Positions 2,819 through 58,021 of a stretch of 64,000 bases of DNA are shown piece by piece (the first letter of the stretch is position 1; the number at the start of each line of letters is the position of its first letter). Made by a program: the position numbers and the translations under genes. The notes under the pieces are model-generated. The model was not told the origin of the DNA. It did no database searches and saw only the letters and a program-made list of their open reading frames with translations. The stretch covers positions 62,001-126,000 of the forward strand of contig NZ_LR699166.1 of assembly GCF_902459525.1 (NCBI RefSeq). Direction: 5' to 3'. The stretch is from Sideroxydans sp. CL21 (GTDB lineage Bacteria; Pseudomonadota; Gammaproteobacteria; Burkholderiales; Gallionellaceae).

Positions 2819-3587
2819 GCTTATTCGTAAATCTTACTGGTTACTCAGTGCGCAGTTTGGCTTCGACCCAAGACGATTGTTTCGCTCGTGCAGGGGAATT
2901 CCTCGATATGTCGCAGGCTGGTTTCATTTTCGAAAAGAATACAAAGGCAGGCTCGACTTTCTCCCTTGTTTGTATGACTGGTTTGAAGAGGGTGGTTCCA
3001 CCAAGGACGAATACTTTTGGCAGGATTTGCATGTGGCACGGCTAATTCATCTTGCCAATCCGACAAGGCATGTGGATATTGGTTCGCGCATTGATGGCTT
3101 TGTTGCACATGTGGCCAGTTTCAGGGATATCGAAGTGTTCGATATTCGCCCTGTCACTTCAATGATTCCAGGAGTTAGTTTCAGGCAGGCAGATTTGATG
3201 CATCCGTCCGAATCGCTCATTGAATATTGCGACTCACTTTCATGTTTACACGCGCTGGAGCATTTTGGCCTTGGCCGCTACGGTGATCCGATTGATCCAC
3301 ATGGATATGCGTCGGGACTGGGTAACATGGCAAGGATACTGCAGTCTGGCGGCTTGTTTTATCTTTCCGTTCCCATCGGACAGGAACGCGTGGAGTTTAA
3401 TGCGCATCGGATATTTGATCCGAACTCACTGGTTCGTCTCGCTGCAGAAAGCGGATTGTTGCTCAGAGAATTCGCATGGATAGGGCAGAGCCGGGCGGTT
3501 ATCTTGTCTTCCGACATGCAGCTGGATATGGCCGAGTTGAGCAAGCTTCGCTATTCATTAGGTATATTTACGTTCGTCAAGCAATAA
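2811..3587 (+). CDS. DUF268-like protein, SAM-methyltransferase fold
   Basis: This 258-residue protein resembles the DUF268 family, found in polysaccharide clusters and built like a Rossmann methyltransferase. HVDIGSRIDGFVAH near residues 88-101 takes the place of motif I, and ALEHFGLGRYGDP near 145-157 takes the place of the post-motif region, but the glycine-rich loop is altered. Its substrate is unknown; modification of a sugar in the polymer is an inference from the neighbours. It overlaps the flippase gene by 8 bases and is followed by two more methyltransferase-like genes, so all appear translationally linked. Confidence 0.8.
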   Translation: MNELIRKSYWLLSAQFGFDPRRLFRSCRGIPRYVAGWFHFRKEYKGRLDFLPCLYDWFEEGGSTKDEYFWQDLHVARLIHLANPTRHVDIGSRIDGFVAHVASFRDIEVFDIRPVTSMIPGVSFRQADLMHPSESLIEYCDSLSCLHALEHFGLGRYGDPIDPHGYASGLGNMARILQSGGLFYLSVPIGQERVEFNAHRIFDPNSLVRLAAESGLLLREFAWIGQSRAVILSSDMQLDMAELSKLRYSLGIFTFVKQ

Positions 3588-3597
3588 GGACTGGAAA

Positions 3598-4317
3598 GTG
3601 AAGAAATTATTAAAAGGCATAATCGGGATTGACGCCAACGAAGAAGGGCGGAATCGGTGGCTGGCTGAGACGTTGTCGGCCATCCCGCCAGGTTTGCGCT
3701 TGCTCGATGCCGGAGCGGGTGAATTACGCAACAAGCCGTTATGTTCTCACTTGAATTATGTGTCGCAGGATGCTTGCCAGTATGAAGGAAAGGGAGACGA
3801 AAAAGGGCTGCAAACTGGCACATGGGATACCAGCAGGATTGATCTTGTCTGTGACATCATAAATATTCCAGAACCAAATGCCTCGTTTGATGTGATTCTG
3901 TGCAGCGAGGTATTTGAGCATTTACCCGACGCAATCAAGGCATTGGATGAGTTTGCGCGTTTGCTAAAACCGGGCGGCAAACTGATCATCACTGCACCGT
4001 TTGCTTCATTCGTGCACTTTGCGCCATACCATTACGCCACTGGATATAGCCGCTACTGGTATGAATATCACTTGCCGCCGCGAAATTTTGAAATCCAGGA
4101 GCTGATACCTAATGGTGATTGGTTCTCCTACGCAAAACAGGAAATGTTGCGGCTGCCCGGCATGGCACGCCGCTACGGTGATTGGTGCTGGCCTTTAAGC
4201 TATCTGGTAGCGGGAGCCGGTTTGATTTATTTCTCGCTACGCGGAAAATCTCGGATGGCCGATGAGGTTGCATGTTTTGGGTGGCACTGCGTTGCTGTCA
4301 AACAGCAAATAATTTGA
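3598..4317 (+). CDS. Class I SAM-dependent methyltransferase
   Basis: This is a 239-residue methyltransferase of the Methyltransf_11 type. Motif I is LLDAGAGE at residues 35-42, the acidic and post-I elements follow in DLVCDI and CSEVFEHLPD, and LLKPGGKLIITAPF is the usual beta-5 region. A hydrophobic stretch near residues 200-220 (YLVAGAGLIYFSLRG) may associate it with the membrane. The start is GTG at 3598, supported by AAGGA about 7 bases upstream. It lies between two other methyltransferase-like genes in the polysaccharide operon, so sugar methylation is likely but the position modified is unknown. Confidence 0.85.
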   Translation: MKKLLKGIIGIDANEEGRNRWLAETLSAIPPGLRLLDAGAGELRNKPLCSHLNYVSQDACQYEGKGDEKGLQTGTWDTSRIDLVCDIINIPEPNASFDVILCSEVFEHLPDAIKALDEFARLLKPGGKLIITAPFASFVHFAPYHYATGYSRYWYEYHLPPRNFEIQELIPNGDWFSYAKQEMLRLPGMARRYGDWCWPLSYLVAGAGLIYFSLRGKSRMADEVACFGWHCVAVKQQII

Positions 4318-50927: not shown

Positions 50928-53711
50928 ATGAAGACATTGTTGTTGGTGGATGGCTCGTCCTATCTGTATCGCGCTTTCCATGCCATGCCGGACTTGCGCA
51001 GCCCGCGGGGCGAACCGACCGGTGCGATCTACGGCGTGCTCAATATGCTGCGCCGTTTGCGTGCCGACTACCCGGCAGATTATAGCGCTTGCGTGTTCGA
51101 TGCGAAGGGCAAAACGTTCCGCGACGACTGGTACCCGGAATACAAAGCGCACCGTCCCCCGATGCCCGACGACCTGCGTTTGCAGATCGAACCGCTGCAT
51201 GAAGTCGTCGCGGCGGCAGGCTGGAACATCCTGATGATCGACGGTGTCGAGGCGGATGATGTCATTGGTACATTGACGCATGAAGCCTCGCGGAATGGCA
51301 CGCGCTGCATCGTCTCCACCGGAGACAAAGACCTCACCCAGCTGGTCAATCCGCATGTCACGCTGGTCAACACCATGAGCAACGAAGTGCTGGACGAGGC
51401 GGGCGTGCTGGCCAAGTTCGGCGTGCCTCCGGAGCGCATCGTGGATTACCTGTCGCTGGTGGGCGACGCCGTGGACAACGTGCCAGGCGTGGCCAAGTGC
51501 GGCCCCAAGACCGCAGTGAAATGGTTGACCCAATACGGCACGCTGGACAACCTGCTGGCACACGCGGATGAAGTGGGTGGCGCTGTTGGCGAGAACCTGC
51601 GTGCCGCGCGCGACTGGCTGCCGCAGGGCCGCCGACTGGTTACCGTGAAATGCGACGTGGCGCTGGACAAGAAGTTCGACGAACTGGCCGCTCCGGCAGC
51701 GGACGCGGAGAAGATGCGCGAGCTGTTCGAACGCTTCGGGTTCAAGTCCTGGCTGCGCGAAGTTTCACTCCCCTCGCCCTCCGGGAGAGGGGCCGGGGGT
51801 GAGGGAACACTCGGTCAAAAACCAGCCCTCACCCCAACCCTCTCCCGGGGGGCGAGGGAGCAAGAGCAACGCCAATTCGAGCAGGCGCCGTTACCATCGA
51901 CGGTCAACGACACCTCCAACTACGAAGCCATCCTCACCGAGGCCCAGCTTGATGCCTGGCTGCATAAGCTGATGGAAGCGAAGCTGGTCAGCATCGATAC
52001 CGAGACCACCGGCCTCGACGAAATGACAGCGCAACTGGTCGGCATCTCGTTCAGCATTGAAACGCATCACGCTGCCTATCTGCCGCTGGCGCACCATTAT
52101 CCCGGCGCGCCGGATCAGCTCAACCGCGAGCATGCGCTGCATAAACTCAAGCACTGGCTGGAAAGCCCGTCGCACAAAAAGCTGGGACAAAACCTCAAAT
52201 ACGACCAGCACATCTTTGCCAATCACGGCATCGCGCTGGCGGGTATTGCCGAAGACACGCTATTGGAATCCTACGTGCTGGAATCGCACAAACCGCACGA
52301 GATGGGCAATCTCGCGTTGCGCCATCTGGGGCTGTCCACAGTCAGCTACACCGACGTGGTGGGCAAGGGCGCGAAGCAGATCGGTTTCGACCAGGTCGAT
52401 CTCGAGACTGCCACGCGTTACGCGGCAGAGGATGCCGACATTACTTTGCAACTGCACCAGACACTGTCGCCACAGCTGCAAGGCCGTCTGGATGCGGTCT
52501 ACAGGCAAATCGAGTTGCCCGCGCGCGAGGTGCTGTTCAAGATGGAACGCAACGGCGTGCTGATCGACAGCACCATGCTGGGCAGACAAAGCCACGAACT
52601 GGGCGAGAAGCTGATGACCATCGAGAAGCAGGCGTTCGAGCTGGCAGGCCAGCCCTTCAATCTGGCCTCGCCCAAGCAGTTGCAGGAGATCCTTTTCGAC
52701 AAGCTGGGCATCCCCTCGAAGAAAAAGACCGCCACCGGCTCGCGCTCGACCGACGAGGAAGTGCTGCAGGAACTTGCGCTCGATTACCCGCTGCCCAAGA
52801 TCCTGCTTGAGCATCGCGGCATGGCGAAACTCAAATCCACCTACACTGACAAACTGCCGTTGATGGTGAATCGCAACACCGGGCGCGTACACACCAGCTA
52901 TTCGCAAGCGGTAGCAGTGACCGGGCGTCTGGCCTCCAGCGATCCCAATTTGCAGAACATCCCGATCCGCACACCCGAAGGCCGCCGCATCCGCGAAGCG
53001 TTCATCGCGCCTGCCGGTTCGCGCATCGTGTCGGCAGACTATTCGCAGATCGAGCTGCGCATCATGGCGCACCTGTCCGGCGACGAAGGCCTGCTCAAGG
53101 CTTTCGCAGCGGGCGAGGACATCCACCGCGCTACCGCCGCCGAAGTGTTCGGCGTGCCGCTGGATGCGGTGAGTAGCGAACAGCGCCGCTTCGCCAAGGT
53201 CACCAACTTCGGCCTTATCTACGGCATGTCCGCCTTCGGCCTTGCCTCGCAACTCAACATCGAACGCGGTGCGGCCCAGCAATACATCGACCTCTACTTC
53301 GCACGCTATCCCGGCGTGAAGCGCTACATGGACAGCACGCGCGAACAGGCCAAGGCACAGGGGTTTGTGGAGACCTGGTTCGGACGCAGATTGTGGCTGC
53401 CCGAGATCAACGGCGCCAACGGCATGCGTCGCCAGGCAGCAGAACGCGCCGCCATCAACGCTCCGATGCAGGGTACGGCTGCCGACTTGATCAAGCTGGC
53501 GATGATCGCCGTGCAGGATTGGTTGGAGAAAGAGAAGTTGGCGACGAAACTCATTATGCAGGTGCACGATGAATTGGTGCTGGAAGTGCCGCAGGCGGAA
53601 TTGGCTCTTGTGAAGGAGAAGGTGCGGGAGTTGATGTGCGGGGTGGCGGAGTTGAGGGTGCCGTTGGAGGTGGGATTGGGTGAGGGGGGGAATTGGGATG
53701 AGGCGCATTAA
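50928..53711 (+). CDS. polA: DNA polymerase I with repeat-encoded linker
   Basis: The 927-residue repair and gap-filling polymerase has three domains. The 5' nuclease (residues 1-280) starts LLLVDGSSYLYRAFHAMPDL. The 3'-5' exonuclease follows from about residue 335 and is probably active because DTETTG (near 356) keeps its acidic pair. The polymerase domain has ADYSQIELRIMAHLSGD near 703, VTNFGLIYGMSA, and VHDELVLEVP near 878. Residues about 282-311 are encoded by two REP A palindromes in the interdomain linker, without loss of frame. The Shine-Dalgarno lies in the upstream repeat. Confidence 0.97.
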   Translation: MKTLLLVDGSSYLYRAFHAMPDLRSPRGEPTGAIYGVLNMLRRLRADYPADYSACVFDAKGKTFRDDWYPEYKAHRPPMPDDLRLQIEPLHEVVAAAGWNILMIDGVEADDVIGTLTHEASRNGTRCIVSTGDKDLTQLVNPHVTLVNTMSNEVLDEAGVLAKFGVPPERIVDYLSLVGDAVDNVPGVAKCGPKTAVKWLTQYGTLDNLLAHADEVGGAVGENLRAARDWLPQGRRLVTVKCDVALDKKFDELAAPAADAEKMRELFERFGFKSWLREVSLPSPSGRGAGGEGTLGQKPALTPTLSRGAREQEQRQFEQAPLPSTVNDTSNYEAILTEAQLDAWLHKLMEAKLVSIDTETTGLDEMTAQLVGISFSIETHHAAYLPLAHHYPGAPDQLNREHALHKLKHWLESPSHKKLGQNLKYDQHIFANHGIALAGIAEDTLLESYVLESHKPHEMGNLALRHLGLSTVSYTDVVGKGAKQIGFDQVDLETATRYAAEDADITLQLHQTLSPQLQGRLDAVYRQIELPAREVLFKMERNGVLIDSTMLGRQSHELGEKLMTIEKQAFELAGQPFNLASPKQLQEILFDKLGIPSKKKTATGSRSTDEEVLQELALDYPLPKILLEHRGMAKLKSTYTDKLPLMVNRNTGRVHTSYSQAVAVTGRLASSDPNLQNIPIRTPEGRRIREAFIAPAGSRIVSADYSQIELRIMAHLSGDEGLLKAFAAGEDIHRATAAEVFGVPLDAVSSEQRRFAKVTNFGLIYGMSAFGLASQLNIERGAAQQYIDLYFARYPGVKRYMDSTREQAKAQGFVETWFGRRLWLPEINGANGMRRQAAERAAINAPMQGTAADLIKLAMIAVQDWLEKEKLATKLIMQVHDELVLEVPQAELALVKEKVRELMCGVAELRVPLEVGLGEGGNWDEAH
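51771..51859. repeat. Two REP family A units, inverted, inside polA
   Basis: CCCTCGCCCTCCGGGAGAGG (51771-51805) and CCCTCACCCCAACCCTCTCC (51826-51859) are inverted copies separated by 20 bases. The 89 bases are translated as SPSGRGAGGEG and ALTPTLSRGARE in the linker between the nuclease domains. Confidence 0.9.
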
Positions 53712-53721
53712 TTAGTATTTC

Positions 53722-53746
53722 CGTTCGTGCTGAGCCTGTCGAAGGA
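53722..53746. repeat. AGCCTGTCGAA-type REP unit
   Basis: CCGTTCGTGCTGAGCCTGTC with GAAGG follows polA by 10 bases. The same core occurs as an inverted pair inside the element at 12558-12690. Confidence 0.6.
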
Positions 53747-53771: not shown

Positions 53772-54092
53772 CCCTCTCCCTCTGGGAGAGGGCTAGGGTG
53801 AGGGAATACTCGTTGTATTTCCTCTAATCTCAAACCCAACACCGTCGGGGGTAGCCCGACAGCTAGTCACTTTTCTCGTCTTGCCGAGAAAAGTAACCAA
53901 AAGAGGGCGCCCCCGGTTTGCCGCCCTTCGGGTTCCCTCGATATTTCGCCAACAAGCGGGGCTGCGCAACTCGCCCTGGCGGGGCACACAAACCGTGCCC
54001 CACTGCGGAGCTCAAACAGTGCTCGCCTAAACCTCCGCTTGTTGACGAAATATCGAGGCGGCGCTCAGGGGAGGTAAGGCGAAAATCAAAAC
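53772..54092 (+). repeat. Left inverted arm of the composite element
   Basis: It begins with the REP A unit CCCTCTCCCTCTGGGAGAGG, runs through CTCATCTT-free GC-rich sequence with the inner palindrome CTCGATATTTCGCC / GACGAAATATCGAG (about 53936-54055), and ends AAAATCAAAAC. It fills most of the 502-base gap after polA. The remaining 54121-54213 should hold the promoter of the cassette, but the boxes I can see there (TTGATA, TAAGAT) are badly spaced. Confidence 0.85.
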
Positions 54093-54096
54093 TGAA

Positions 54097-54120
54097 TGGT
54101 GGGCAACAAGTTGCCCACCA
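54097..54120. repeat. Inner hairpin, left
   Basis: TGGTGGGCAA, CAAG and TTGCCCACCA form a perfect 10-bp stem directly inside the left arm. Its counterpart on the right has a different but again perfectly paired stem. Confidence 0.85.
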
Positions 54121-54213
54121 TAGTCAAAACAATTCGACTCCGGTACATTGGGTTCTAGCAGACCGACGAGATTGTTGGATATCAAGTTGATAACTGTAAG
54201 ATTGGGATTTCAA

Positions 54214-54636
54214 ATGGATAAACAAAAGAAGTATCTCTTGTTGGGCGCAACGTTAGCTGTGCTAATTTTGATTGGAGGGTATTTGACGTCGATTTATGAC
54301 AGATATCATGTGGCGTCGCTAAATGGTGAGTTAAACACGTTAGCCGAGAAATGCAAAACAGAGACAGCAGGAATGCCCCTATGGGCGCGGGCGCCAGAAG
54401 GACCTTGGACAAAATATCAGAAAATTCCAGCTTTTTGTGATTCCCAAGTCTTTACCAAGTTAGGTGGGGATGAAATTCAAAAGCAACTCGATGAGTTGCA
54501 GTCAACATCGGGCCATGCTTTCAAAAATACAATTAACATTGCGCTATTTGTCTTCCTTCTCTTCGGCGCACCATATGTATGGTATTTCTTGCTTCGTAGA
54601 ATTCGAGAACTTAAAGATGCGATTACCGGAAAATAG
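54214..54636 (+). CDS. Hypothetical two-helix membrane protein of the cassette
   Basis: The 140-residue protein has a helix at about residues 7-27 (LLLGATLAVLILIGGYL), an 80-residue hydrophilic loop with Cys47 and Cys75, and a second helix at about 106-128 (IALFVFLLFGAPYVWYFLL) followed by basic RRIRELK. With the basic ends inside, the loop would be periplasmic. I recognise no family. It lies 11 bases upstream of the HEPN-like gene within the arms and is probably co-transcribed. Codon use is AT-rich relative to neighbours, which suggests transfer. Confidence 0.75.
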   Translation: MDKQKKYLLLGATLAVLILIGGYLTSIYDRYHVASLNGELNTLAEKCKTETAGMPLWARAPEGPWTKYQKIPAFCDSQVFTKLGGDEIQKQLDELQSTSGHAFKNTINIALFVFLLFGAPYVWYFLLRRIRELKDAITGK

Positions 54637-54647
54637 TTAGACCTCAT

Positions 54648-55298
54648 ATGTCCATTCCTGTAGAACTTTCTGACATCTGGGAGTTCCTGAATTCACAGGT
54701 AGTTTGGCTTCATGGCCGCTGGATTGTATATCGACAGATATACGGTACCAATCCGAAACGAATAGATTTGATTAACGAAGCTGCGCCAACATTTTTTTGG
54801 ATGATCGAGCAGTCGTTAATGAATGATGTGCAGCTAACGCTAGTTAAGCTTGCAGACCCATCAACAACTTGTGGGCGGGAGAATTTAACCCTAGAAACCT
54901 TGGTAACTGAGGTTGAAAGAATATCGACTGGTGAACTATCAACTACCATGCGCCAGTCGCTAGTCAATTTTCGTCAGTGCTGTGAAAAAATCAGGCAACG
55001 AAGGCACAAGGATATCGCCCACTTTGATCTTTCAGTTCAACTGGGAAACAAAGCTGAGGTACTTCCCAGTCCGTCACGTCAGGAGATTGAGCTGGCATTG
55101 TTGGAGCTTAGAAAATTCATGAATCTTTTTCTTGATTTCTTTCAAAACACCCAAATGGCGTATGAGCATTTTTCGCTTAGTACGGACGGAAATACTTTAC
55201 TGTTCAGGCTAAAGGAATCTCTTCGCTATGAACAGCTACAATCACTTGGCACCATCCCGCATGAAGATATAGTTCAAAGCACATATCATCTGGACTAA
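54648..55298 (+). CDS. HEPN/AbiU2-like protein
   Basis: The all-alpha protein has 216 residues. LINEAAPTFFWMIEQSLMND, LTLVKLADPSTTCGRENLTL and RQRRHKDIAHFD follow the pattern of AbiU2-type HEPN proteins; R119-H120-x4-H125 fits the HEPN R-x4-6-H ribonuclease signature. Members are linked to abortive infection, but many have no tested function. It is the second gene of the arm-flanked cassette. An RNase role in phage defence is inferred. Assignment rests on motif recognition, not a search. Confidence 0.65.
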   Translation: MSIPVELSDIWEFLNSQVVWLHGRWIVYRQIYGTNPKRIDLINEAAPTFFWMIEQSLMNDVQLTLVKLADPSTTCGRENLTLETLVTEVERISTGELSTTMRQSLVNFRQCCEKIRQRRHKDIAHFDLSVQLGNKAEVLPSPSRQEIELALLELRKFMNLFLDFFQNTQMAYEHFSLSTDGNTLLFRLKESLRYEQLQSLGTIPHEDIVQSTYHLD

Positions 55299-55335
55299 CT
55301 ATTGAAAAGCAGAAATGATGGCAGCTAAATCAAGT

Positions 55336-55360
55336 AGTGTGGGCACGAAGTGCCCACACT
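55336..55360. repeat. Inner hairpin, right
   Basis: AGTGTGGGCAC, GAA and GTGCCCACACT form a perfect 11-bp stem 38 bases after the HEPN-like stop. It is the mirror partner of the hairpin at 54097-54120, with compensating base changes, and may also end transcription of the cassette. Confidence 0.85.
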
Positions 55361-55363
55361 GTG

Positions 55364-55748
55364 GTTTTGATTTTCGATTTCCCCTCCCCTGAGCGCCGCC
55401 TCGATATTTCGCCAGCAAGCGGAGGTTTAGGCGAGCACTGTTTGAGCTCCGCAGTGGGGCACGGTTTGTGTGCCCCGCCAGGGCGAGTTGCGCAGCCCCG
55501 CTTGTTGGCGAAATATCGAGGGAACCCCGAAGGGGCGGCAAACCGGGGGCGCCCTCTTTTGGTTACTTTTCTCGGCAAGACGAGAAAAGTGACTAGCTGT
55601 CGGGCTACCCCCGACGGTGTTGGGTTTGAGATTAGAGGAAATACAACGAGTGTTCCCTCACCCTAGCCCTGATGGAACTACTAGCCATTCGACTAGGCTG
55701 CCAAACAACGTCAGCCAAGTCGCTGGTTATCTCCCAGAGGGAGAGGGG
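55364..55748 (-). repeat. Right inverted arm of the composite element, with 60-bp insertion
   Basis: It is the inverted copy of the left arm. Its outer REP A unit is split: CCCTCACCCTAGCCCT ends at 55670, 60 bases with no counterpart on the left follow (55671-55730), and the unit resumes with CTCCCAGAGGGAGAGGG. The arm makes up most of the 489-base gap before the rlmI-like gene. Confidence 0.88.
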
Positions 55749-55787: not shown

Positions 55788-57125
55788 CTAAGCCACCCTC
55801 AACACCAACCCCTTCAAATACGCCCCCTCCGGAAAACTCAACAACACCGGATGATCCGCTGCCGCATGCAGCTTCTTCACGATCTGCGCATCCACCCCTG
55901 CATCCAGCGCCGCCCCCGCAATGATCTTCTGAAACAGATCATCACTGATGCCGCCGGAACACGAGTAAGTAAACAGCAAACCACCCGGCCGCAACAGCTT
56001 GAAGCCCAGCAGGTTGATGTCCTTGTAGGCGCGCGAGGCCTTCTCGGCAAAAGCCGCAGTGGGTGCGAACTTGGGCGGGTCGAGCACGATGAGGTCGAAC
56101 TTGCGGTTCTGGTCGCGCAGTTTGCGCAGGGCTTCGAACACGTCGGCGCATTGCCACTCGGCACGTGATGGATCGAATCCGTTCAATTCCGCATTGGACT
56201 GCGCCAGTTGCAGCGCCTCCTGCGAAGAATCGATGGAAAGCACCGACTTCGCATCGCCGTGCAATGCATAGAGCGAGAAGCCGCCGGTGTAACAGAAACA
56301 GTTAAGCACGTCGCAATCGGCTGCCAGCGTGCCGGTCAGGGCGCGGTTGTCGCGCTGGTCCAGGTAGAAGCCCGTCTTCTGTCCGGCGGCGACATCCACC
56401 GCGAAGCGGATCCCGTGTTCGGTTACTTCGACTTTATCCGGCAATGCGCCCCGTAGCACGCCGCTGCGCACGGGGAGGCCTTCCAGTTCGCGTCCGTCGG
56501 AATCCGAGCGTTCGTAGATGCAAACGGGCGAACACAGTTCCTGCAGGATGTCGGCCAGTGTGTCGCGCCAATGTTCCGGCCCCGCGCTGCCCAACTGCAT
56601 GACCAATACGTCGCCGTATTTATCCACGATGAGACCGGGCAAACCGTCCGATTCGCCGTGGACAAGGCGCATGCCGTTGCTGTCGCGACCAAGGCCGAGT
56701 GCGCGCCGTGCTTTCAGAGCGAGGGCGATGCGGTTGCGGAAGAATTCCTTGTCGATGACATCGGTTTCGCGCCACGACCATACGCGTGCGGTGATCTGCG
56801 ATTCGGCGTTGTATGCGGCCCACGCCAGAAATTTCCCCGAGGCATCGCGCACCGCTACGGTATCACCGCTGGCAGGCGCACCGTCGATGCATTCGATCGC
56901 GCCGGAGAATATCCACGGGTGGCGGCGCAGCAGCGATTTGTCTCGGTCCGCCTTGAGGATGAGGCCAGGGCGTCCCATTGCATTTCCGGTGCGAACCGGT
57001 GCGGCGGGTTTCGGCGCATGTGTTTCCGTCTTCTGTTTGTCGCGCTTCACACGGTTGCGAAAATCGATGCCGCCTTGCGATGGGCGGTGCGGTGTTGAAT
57101 GTGATTTGGTCTTTGGAGTGTTCAT
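55788..57125 (-). CDS. rlmI: rRNA large-subunit cytosine methyltransferase, RlmI-like
   Basis: It is a PUA-domain SAM methyltransferase expected to modify 23S rRNA (m5C1962 in E. coli). The protein has 445 residues: a basic extension (1-49), the PUA region starting at LILKADRDKSLLRRHPWIFSG, then the catalytic domain with VLNCFCYTGGFSLYAL, DLIVLDPPKFAPT and the motif FTYSCSGG. E. coli RlmI is about 396 residues, so the real start could be the internal Met at about residue 49. It starts in an overlap with the xerC stop. Confidence 0.88.
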   Translation of the reverse strand: MNTPKTKSHSTPHRPSQGGIDFRNRVKRDKQKTETHAPKPAAPVRTGNAMGRPGLILKADRDKSLLRRHPWIFSGAIECIDGAPASGDTVAVRDASGKFLAWAAYNAESQITARVWSWRETDVIDKEFFRNRIALALKARRALGLGRDSNGMRLVHGESDGLPGLIVDKYGDVLVMQLGSAGPEHWRDTLADILQELCSPVCIYERSDSDGRELEGLPVRSGVLRGALPDKVEVTEHGIRFAVDVAAGQKTGFYLDQRDNRALTGTLAADCDVLNCFCYTGGFSLYALHGDAKSVLSIDSSQEALQLAQSNAELNGFDPSRAEWQCADVFEALRKLRDQNRKFDLIVLDPPKFAPTAAFAEKASRAYKDINLLGFKLLRPGGLLFTYSCSGGISDDLFQKIIAGAALDAGVDAQIVKKLHAAADHPVLLSFPEGAYLKGLVLRVA

Positions 57126-58021
57126 GTTTTCTTTTTGGCACGCGGATGCGCACTGTCGTAAATTTTGGCGAGGTATTGGAAATCGAGGTGAGTATAGACC
57201 TGTGTGGTGGAAATGCTGGCGTGACCCAACATTTCTTGTACCGCACGCAGGTCGCCCGAGGATTGCAGCACATGCGTGGCGAAGGAATGGCGTAGCAGGT
57301 GCGGATGCACGCCGCTGGCAATGCCCTGGGTGATGCCGCGCTGGCGCAGGTGCAGTTGCACGGTGCGCGGGCTGATGCGGGCGCCGTTCTTGCCGACGAA
57401 CAGGGCCGTCTCGCCCGGTTTGGCGATCGGTTCGCGCACCGCCAGCCACGCTTTCAAGGCGTCGATGGCATGGCTGCCCAGCGGCACGATGCGCGTCTTG
57501 TTGCCTTTGCCGGTGACGCGCACCGAGGCGTCGGCAAAATCCATGTCGATGGGATCGAGGCTCACCAGTTCTGCCAAACGCAAACCCGAGGAATAGAGCA
57601 ATTCGAACATCGCCTTGTCGCGCGCATCCATCGGCGTTTCAACGGGCATCTCGACCAGTTTCACCGCCTCGTCGGGTGAGAGCGCATGCGGCAGGGTCTT
57701 GGGTGCCTTCGGCGCACGCAGGCCGACACAGGGGTTGCTCTTGCAGCCGTGGTCGCGCATCAGGTAGCCATAGAAACCGCGCCAGGCTGAAAGCACACGC
57801 GCCAGAGAACGCCCGCCCAGGCCGCTGCCGTGCAACTGCGCGATAAAGCGGCGGATGTGGTGGCTCTTGAGGTCGGGCAGCGGGGTCGTTCCGGCAAGCG
57901 CCAGCAAGCGCCGGATGTCGCGTGCGTAGTTCTCGGCAGTCAGCGGGGAATAGTTGCGCTCGTTGTGCAGGTAGGCGAGGTAGCCTTGCAGTGTGACGGG
58001 GACTTGTTCAGTGGCGGGCAT
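57122..58021 (-). CDS. xerC: Tyrosine recombinase XerC
   Basis: It resolves chromosome dimers at dif with XerD. The 299-residue protein has the N-terminal SAM-like DNA-binding domain and the catalytic domain: Arg in LYSSGLRLAELVSLD, the HPHLLRHSFATHVL box with His-x2-Arg, His in GHASISTT and the nucleophile Tyr in TQVYTHLD. Upstream lies DUF484 and then dapF, the classic proteobacterial dapF-DUF484-xerC order, which separates it from XerD and phage integrases. Confidence 0.96.
   Translation of the reverse strand: MPATEQVPVTLQGYLAYLHNERNYSPLTAENYARDIRRLLALAGTTPLPDLKSHHIRRFIAQLHGSGLGGRSLARVLSAWRGFYGYLMRDHGCKSNPCVGLRAPKAPKTLPHALSPDEAVKLVEMPVETPMDARDKAMFELLYSSGLRLAELVSLDPIDMDFADASVRVTGKGNKTRIVPLGSHAIDALKAWLAVREPIAKPGETALFVGKNGARISPRTVQLHLRQRGITQGIASGVHPHLLRHSFATHVLQSSGDLRAVQEMLGHASISTTQVYTHLDFQYLAKIYDSAHPRAKKKT

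Follow-up and report, generated by a model that had tools for sequence, protein, structure and literature searches.

The locus at positions 53772-55748 of the window, the 64,000-nt stretch of Sideroxydans sp. CL21 analysed here (contig NZ_LR699166.1, positions 62,001 to 126,000), holds two AT-rich genes between long inverted arms. Judging from sequence comparison, we consider it rather likely that this is a filled exchange slot resembling a minimal mobile element (MME), in which dispersed inverted arms bordered by units like repetitive extragenic palindromes (REP) would frame the cargo and recombination between arms would swap it. Between facing arms there is either no gene or an accessory, partly defence-like cargo of usually one and sometimes two AT-rich genes. 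By comparison of genomes, arms persist at a site, the cargo there differs, two cargo families occur at different sites, and flanks have been exchanged. The window locus is one case of a large dispersed arm family.

The slot in the window lies between the 3′ end of polA (50928-53711, plus strand; named by reading of the sequence) and an rlmI-like gene (55788-57449, minus strand). Aligned with gaps, its arms (53805-54076 and 55382-55655) are identical in 265 of 275 columns (96%), and they contain two ungapped blocks, each 99% complementary, of 145 nt (53930-54074 with 55383-55527) and 138 nt (53789-53926 with 55533-55670). On each side an outer arm (left, 53830-53938, plus strand, matching our outer-arm model R1; right, 55519-55629, minus strand, G000:C1:117519-117629) is followed inward by a hairpin (left, 53936-54058, plus strand, stems 53936-53959 and 54035-54058; right, 55399-55521, minus strand, stems 55399-55422 and 55498-55521). 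The cargo stretch (54125-55330) has a GC content of 0.42, versus 0.56 for the window, and encodes a 140-aa protein with two predicted transmembrane (TM) helices (54214-54636, plus strand; length from an inner ATG) and a 216-aa HEPN_AbiU2 protein (54648-55298, plus strand). A preliminary description, made from the letters alone, had reported long inverted arms around two AT-rich genes, a hairpin inside each arm and no transposase between them, all of which holds: only the TM protein and HEPN_AbiU2 genes lie there.

Evidence for exchange comes from polA. Its tail was located in 30 of the 34 genomes of the genus (Gallionellaceae; taken to be Sideroxydans and Sideroxyarcus), with the contig ending at polA in two. 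Arms lie downstream in 23 of the 28 informative genomes, two of these cut by a contig end, and are absent from G004, G005, G007, G009 and G032. A cargo gene was readable in 21 genomes, including the arm-less G009, and these genes form 20 families, the single shared family being that of G030 and G010 (63%). The wider HEPN group accounts for several of the families. In two of the loci, L199 and L200, collinearity extends as far as the polA stop and resumes 51 bp ahead of the arm, continuing over 4.1 kb; the cargos lying between these stretches are unrelated. The mutY and lnt sites behave alike, each with five different cargos in five genomes as delimited by protein flanks; a sixth genome at lnt, G018, found by DNA flanks, has the same RelA_SpoT cargo as G024. 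At the polA, mutY and lnt sites, then, whole-gene cassettes differ between conserved genes, across species rather than strains, in agreement with the cargo mobility proposed earlier. Because arms at the same site nearly always hold different genes, they give the impression of framing accessory genes that can be exchanged, at the polA 3′ end and similar sites.

Flanking genes have also changed partners at arm sites. The usual combinations are polA-F1 (12 genomes) and rlmI-F16 (G002 and G025, where the rlmI-like gene adjoins another arm site), while the CL21 genome has polA-rlmI, in the window, and F1-F16, at locus L026. Similarly, mutY-F4 is found in four genomes and F13-F14 in two, and G015 has F13-mutY (L050) and F4-F14 (L052). 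The earlier suggestion that the arms recombine is strengthened by these two reciprocal flank exchanges, which indicate that arms behave as portable homology. Given the polA-rlmI and F1-F16 flanks in CL21, two arm sites probably recombined to form the window element; for the polA/rlmI slot these would be the polA site and the rlmI site. One-sided changes were seen as F4-F17 in G026 and F2-F23 in G012 and G013, and in seven further genomes the polA partner is unmatched or off the contig. A supposed flank link, F25 (L196/L107), proved to be arm sequence and not a shared flank, and was left uncounted.

Cargo has been found at more than one site as well. The members of cargo family K1 in L029 and L080, which are different sites, align from one arm through to the other (85%) with no match beyond them, and the RelA_SpoT units of L069 and L188, again at differing sites, match from the arm start inward. 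Three other cases were withdrawn: DUF3800 in L026 and L199, considered as a cassette jump, has flanks that show rearrangement, and L031/L079 and L069/L086, considered as moves, each have a common flank. The two arms of a pair resemble each other more closely when cargo lies between them (0.844, n = 34) than when the unit is empty (0.757, n = 27; p 1e-4), as expected if longer loops permit exchange between arms, and recent duplication would have the same effect. Loci called empty include the one-sided or contig-end cases L095, L097, L098, L105, L106 and L203 and are not proven empty.

Facing arms are the rule throughout the family. Among the matches listed, with overlapping ones merged, adjoining arms within 5 kb are oriented “+-” in 50 cases and “--” in three, and never “-+” or “++”. 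Reading 68 loci, of which 45 had been chosen as already known pairs and 15 as single hits (L095-L109; L109 was later excluded as a duplicate of L204), gave 60 facing pairs; a facing arm turned up in 10 of the 15 single-hit loci. The arms are 224-455 nt apart in 26 pairs and 791-1713 nt apart in 34, with no gap size between 455 and 791 nt, and the cargo stretches have a mean GC content of 0.44 (n = 34).

Searched against its own genome, the left arm gave 25 match rows, itself and palindrome pieces included, and model R1 found 13 arms in CL21. An arm is present in 30 of the 34 genus genomes according to R1 and in 32 with the whole arm as DNA query. Beyond the genus the counts are lower bounds, with 10-12 candidates scored per genome: at least 92 of 300 genomes and 48 of 134 genera in the order, and at least 41 of 369 genomes in the class, CL21 included, with far lower scores outside CL21. 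An exact arm piece recurs in 21 stretches of named genomes, some of Sideroxydans or Sideroxyarcus and others named to a higher group only; plasmids and phages gave no match to the arm sequence. By titles and the starts of abstracts, rather than by sequence, we recognised no description of this arm family in the open-licence literature. Core-gene 3′ ends are where these arms chiefly lie. Loci L136 and L137 of G112, which belongs to a different genus of the same taxonomic family, have larger cargo ORFs (open reading frames) between facing arms, of 513 aa without a Pfam family and 601 aa as listed.

The cargo of the genus is diverse. Fifty cargo proteins, counting those at polA and one-sided cases, form 44 sequence families; two of 52 were dropped before clustering, L058_2450 as arm-derived and L059_1597 as small. 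Pfam, run on 40 of the genus cargo proteins, placed 13 in a family above cut-off: HEPN_AbiU2, HEPN_RiboL-PSP (twice), DUF5677, DUF3800, RelA_SpoT (twice), KilA-N, CoiA_N, DUF2971, TIR/SEFIR, PIN_4 and NERD. PADLOC matched four of 12 cargo proteins (L032 as bSEFIR, L069 as PDC-S33, L028 as PDC-S31 and L202 weakly as PglW) and not the other eight, and neither window protein had a match; most of the 12 had been picked for a defence-like look, so these results give no estimate of enrichment. Elsewhere in CL21, facing pairs hold DUF3800 (L026), a small TM protein (L029), a HEPN-like ORF read from its R-x-H motif, with no Pfam family (L031), or no gene (L027), and lone arms lie downstream of genes for a DUF2971 protein (L028), a HEPN-like protein by reading (L030) and a TIR/SEFIR protein with a weak macro match (L032).

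Several observations weigh against a freely exchanging slot. First cargo genes at polA run with polA in 20 of 21 genomes (two-sided binomial 2e-5, hand count), which is poorly compatible with free flipping and gives no support to frequent inversion of the cargo, a flip that the preliminary description saw the arms as allowing. At certain sites no genome that was read has any cargo, which such a slot need not predict. At six polA loci (L190, L194, L196, L199, L200 and L208) the cargo starts <100 nt from the polA stop without a left arm, the arms coming after it, and in G009 (L202) a cargo gene for a NERD protein follows polA without any arms; arms are thus no constant requirement. When all 61 pairs are taken together, the similarity between left and right arm (0.805) barely exceeds that between arms belonging to separate elements of one genome (0.795). 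Cargo families with arms at clearly different sites number only two, K1 (L029/L080) and RelA_SpoT (L069 and L086 vs. L188). The exchanges were read from genome comparison, with no recombination event observed; flank swaps were compared at arm sites alone; and most relatives have multi-contig assemblies in which repeats may cause misjoins (CL21 is one contig, G015 is not). Finally, ComEC, found in 32 of 34 genus genomes, supports competence only weakly, since 10 of 14 control genomes match it as well.

Observations of this kind bring up the alternative that the arms are terminator-like repeats at gene ends, where accessory genes gather by illegitimate events, insertion there being harmless, with the arms uninvolved. 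The arm-less G009 and the six cargos lacking a left arm fit it, as do the flank clusters, 19 of 22 of which, among those listed, point their 3′ ends at the element. We nevertheless regard it as quite improbable, in view of the facing orientation of 50 of 53 adjoining arms among the matches listed, the arm-to-arm homology of L029 and L080, and the two reciprocal exchanges at arm sites. The end of the L029/L080 homology at the arm ends also suits a different explanation, in which arms and cargo form non-autonomous transposable units that an HUH (Y1/RAYT-like) or other transposase mobilises in trans; shared sites would then come from a target preference for gene ends. We hold both parts of this to be unlikely, while giving them some weight: the arms are palindromic with subterminal hairpins, Y1_Tnp matches occur in 20 of 34 genus genomes (in CL21 one partial and one weak), and PMC3733652 describes a hypothesis in which GTAG REPs are mobilised by RAYTs. 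However, the other 14 genomes have no Y1_Tnp match, including G026, G001 and G016 with 12, 10 and 8 arms, and Pfam, run on 28 of the 34 cargo units, gave no transposase family. No target duplication was recognised at polA between G011 and G007 or G032, the filled L207 being compared with the arm-less L210 and L211, though these flanks have diverged. Orthologous sites, moreover, persist across the genus while their cargo changes.

That the cargo consists of integron cassettes landed beside arms seems very unlikely. Of the 34 genus genomes, 15 have an integron integrase that passes the cut-off, but CL21 does not, and at L098 (G002) two attC sites and a cassette gene adjoin an arm; yet the attC sites of four genus integrons match L098 alone among 117 loci, and no cargo matched the 15 integron loci, apart from that of L099 to itself and arm-derived matches. 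Except at L098, an integron origin of cargo was therefore rejected as unsupported. The preliminary description had instead proposed a dedicated two-gene membrane/RNase defence module moving as a unit. In its favour, the two genes of the window lie 11 bp apart on the same strand, and the second matches HEPN_AbiU2 (PF18734) over residues 6-167 (E 4.8e-16, 59.2 bits vs. a cut-off of 26.8), a family that PMC3710099 ties to abortive infection, with some HEPN proteins tied to membranes. The description of both proteins stands: R119 and H125 satisfy the R-x4-6-H motif of the family as an R-x5-H that is retained, by eye, in four family relatives, and the TM protein, which has no Pfam family above cut-off, shows two hydropathy peaks (residues 6-28 and 106-128), the predicted helices. 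Their pairing does not hold. HEPN relatives occur in five of 158 family genomes and four of 399 order genomes, and TM relatives in three of the 158, CL21 counted each time, and in none of the other family genomes do the two occur together. No arms and no relative of the TM protein are seen in the 3.6 kb of the nearest HEPN relative (65%, L043), and the nearest TM relative (58%, L048) adjoins an empty arm pair without HEPN. The pair is thus not a conserved module within the genomes searched, and we give the idea of a dedicated unit almost no credence. Family membership makes an RNase of the abortive-infection type the probable identity of the HEPN cargo, and the TM protein probably rides along as a passenger in its own right.

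Under the exchange slot that we favor, RecA-type homologous recombination would take place between arms, or between an arm and a core gene such as polA, and would swap in incoming arm-flanked genes; recombination between two arm sites would occasionally rearrange the chromosome between them. The DNA might enter by transformation. Exchange slots would explain the integrase-free turnover of single accessory genes, several of them defence-like, at fixed places, and why some such places are rearrangement points. More tentatively, and with considerable doubt, the arms may be a dedicated, order-wide frame of portable homology, by which any arm-flanked gene would be exchangeable at every arm site of related cells; if so, they would be a recombinase-free counterpart of the integron, spreading single defence-like genes. 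Reading the stretches between facing arms is a simple way to gather unknown accessory genes.

Further features of the window locus concern its borders. A short REP-like repeat (53721-53745, plus strand) lies between polA and the left arm, with similar units, by eye, beside other arms. Outside the left arm is a REP-like unit of the CCCTCTCCC type (53772-53804, plus strand), and outside the right arm one that is split (55655-55747, minus strand) into pieces at 55655-55669 and 55730-55747. The earlier claim of a REP unit outside each arm holds, with a 60-bp insert (55670-55729) interrupting the unit on the right. The name REP A was that description's own; REP-like is used here for resemblance. 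Small REP-like hairpins mark the borders between arm and cargo (54098-54119, plus strand) and cargo and arm (55337-55359, minus strand). Folded as single-stranded DNA, the left arm (53815-54115) has a z of -6.7, and none of 100 shuffles folds equally well. Rfam gave no match at gathering score in 18 loci, and whalefall-1, a weak match to the window REP-like unit, was dismissed as chance or a common hairpin shape (18 bits vs. 37, E 0.19). The best model for the rlmI-like gene is NF011707, with a score below the curated cut-off and a match from frame residue 162. Eight more ORFs of ≥60 aa overlap 53772-55748, none of which we took as a gene.

The 60-bp insert is a palindromic repeat that recurs, by eye, in L026 (~1688-1745), L195 and L207, within an arm in the first, whereas the other two have it in REP-like units that lie outside the arms; it shows no visible target duplication and is perhaps itself mobile. 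Other polA loci are more elaborate: in L204, L194 and L196, genes and arms are stacked behind polA like an array, and L204 keeps an arm remnant on the left side. L194 (G028) has two small adjacent ORFs (1558-2181) between two same-facing arms, by look alone a candidate RelE/HigB-type toxin and antitoxin. As for integrons, the attC pair and cassette gene of L098 (G002:C1:34700-40700, ~3209-3710) abut the inner arm end, as if the border of the arm had served an integrase as a secondary site, and the same genome has a small chromosomal integron (L227, 15273-18879) comprising several cassettes and an integrase that scores above cut-off. Five attC sites from G002, G012, G019 and G030 are much alike.

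The arm slots share features with several known systems. Composite miniature inverted-repeat transposable elements (MITEs) and mobile insertion cassettes have inverted repeats around cargo and no transposase, as is the case here; in our loci, however, no transposase source was found and no target duplication recognised between the diverged flanks compared, and sites are conserved across species while the cargo turns over. Arm ends shared with an autonomous element were not seen, the search covering two cargo proteins from 20 loci of other genera and families. Integron cassette arrays likewise place single AT-rich genes beside structured sites, but here genus-type attC occurs only at L098, CL21 has no integrase above cut-off, and the sites are dispersed rather than gathered in one array. 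REP sequences, bacterial interspersed mosaic elements (BIMEs) and REPINs with their RAYTs, as covered in PMC3733652, are intergenic hairpins, and REP-like units, some by eye with GTAG next to the hairpin, border the arms; the arms are much longer, stand in facing pairs and hold genes. For HEPN_AbiU2, the domain match and R-x5-H agree with the family, and the TM protein differs from the partners given in PMC3710099 (Sel1-repeat, restriction-modification and Bxe_C0808).

The closest likeness is to the MME of Neisseria, defined in PMC3898611 as a region between conserved genes that has different whole-gene cassettes in different strains and incorporates them solely by homologous recombination. 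Here too, conserved genes border varying cargo and no recombinase lies inside; the homologous recombination half of the definition we infer for the arm slots, and the breakpoints and reciprocal flanks fit it. Unlike in the MME, the cargo is framed by ~290-nt inverted arms that recur dispersed at many sites, and the arm sites exchange flanks with one another. What is new compared with MMEs is this framing by dispersed inverted arms.
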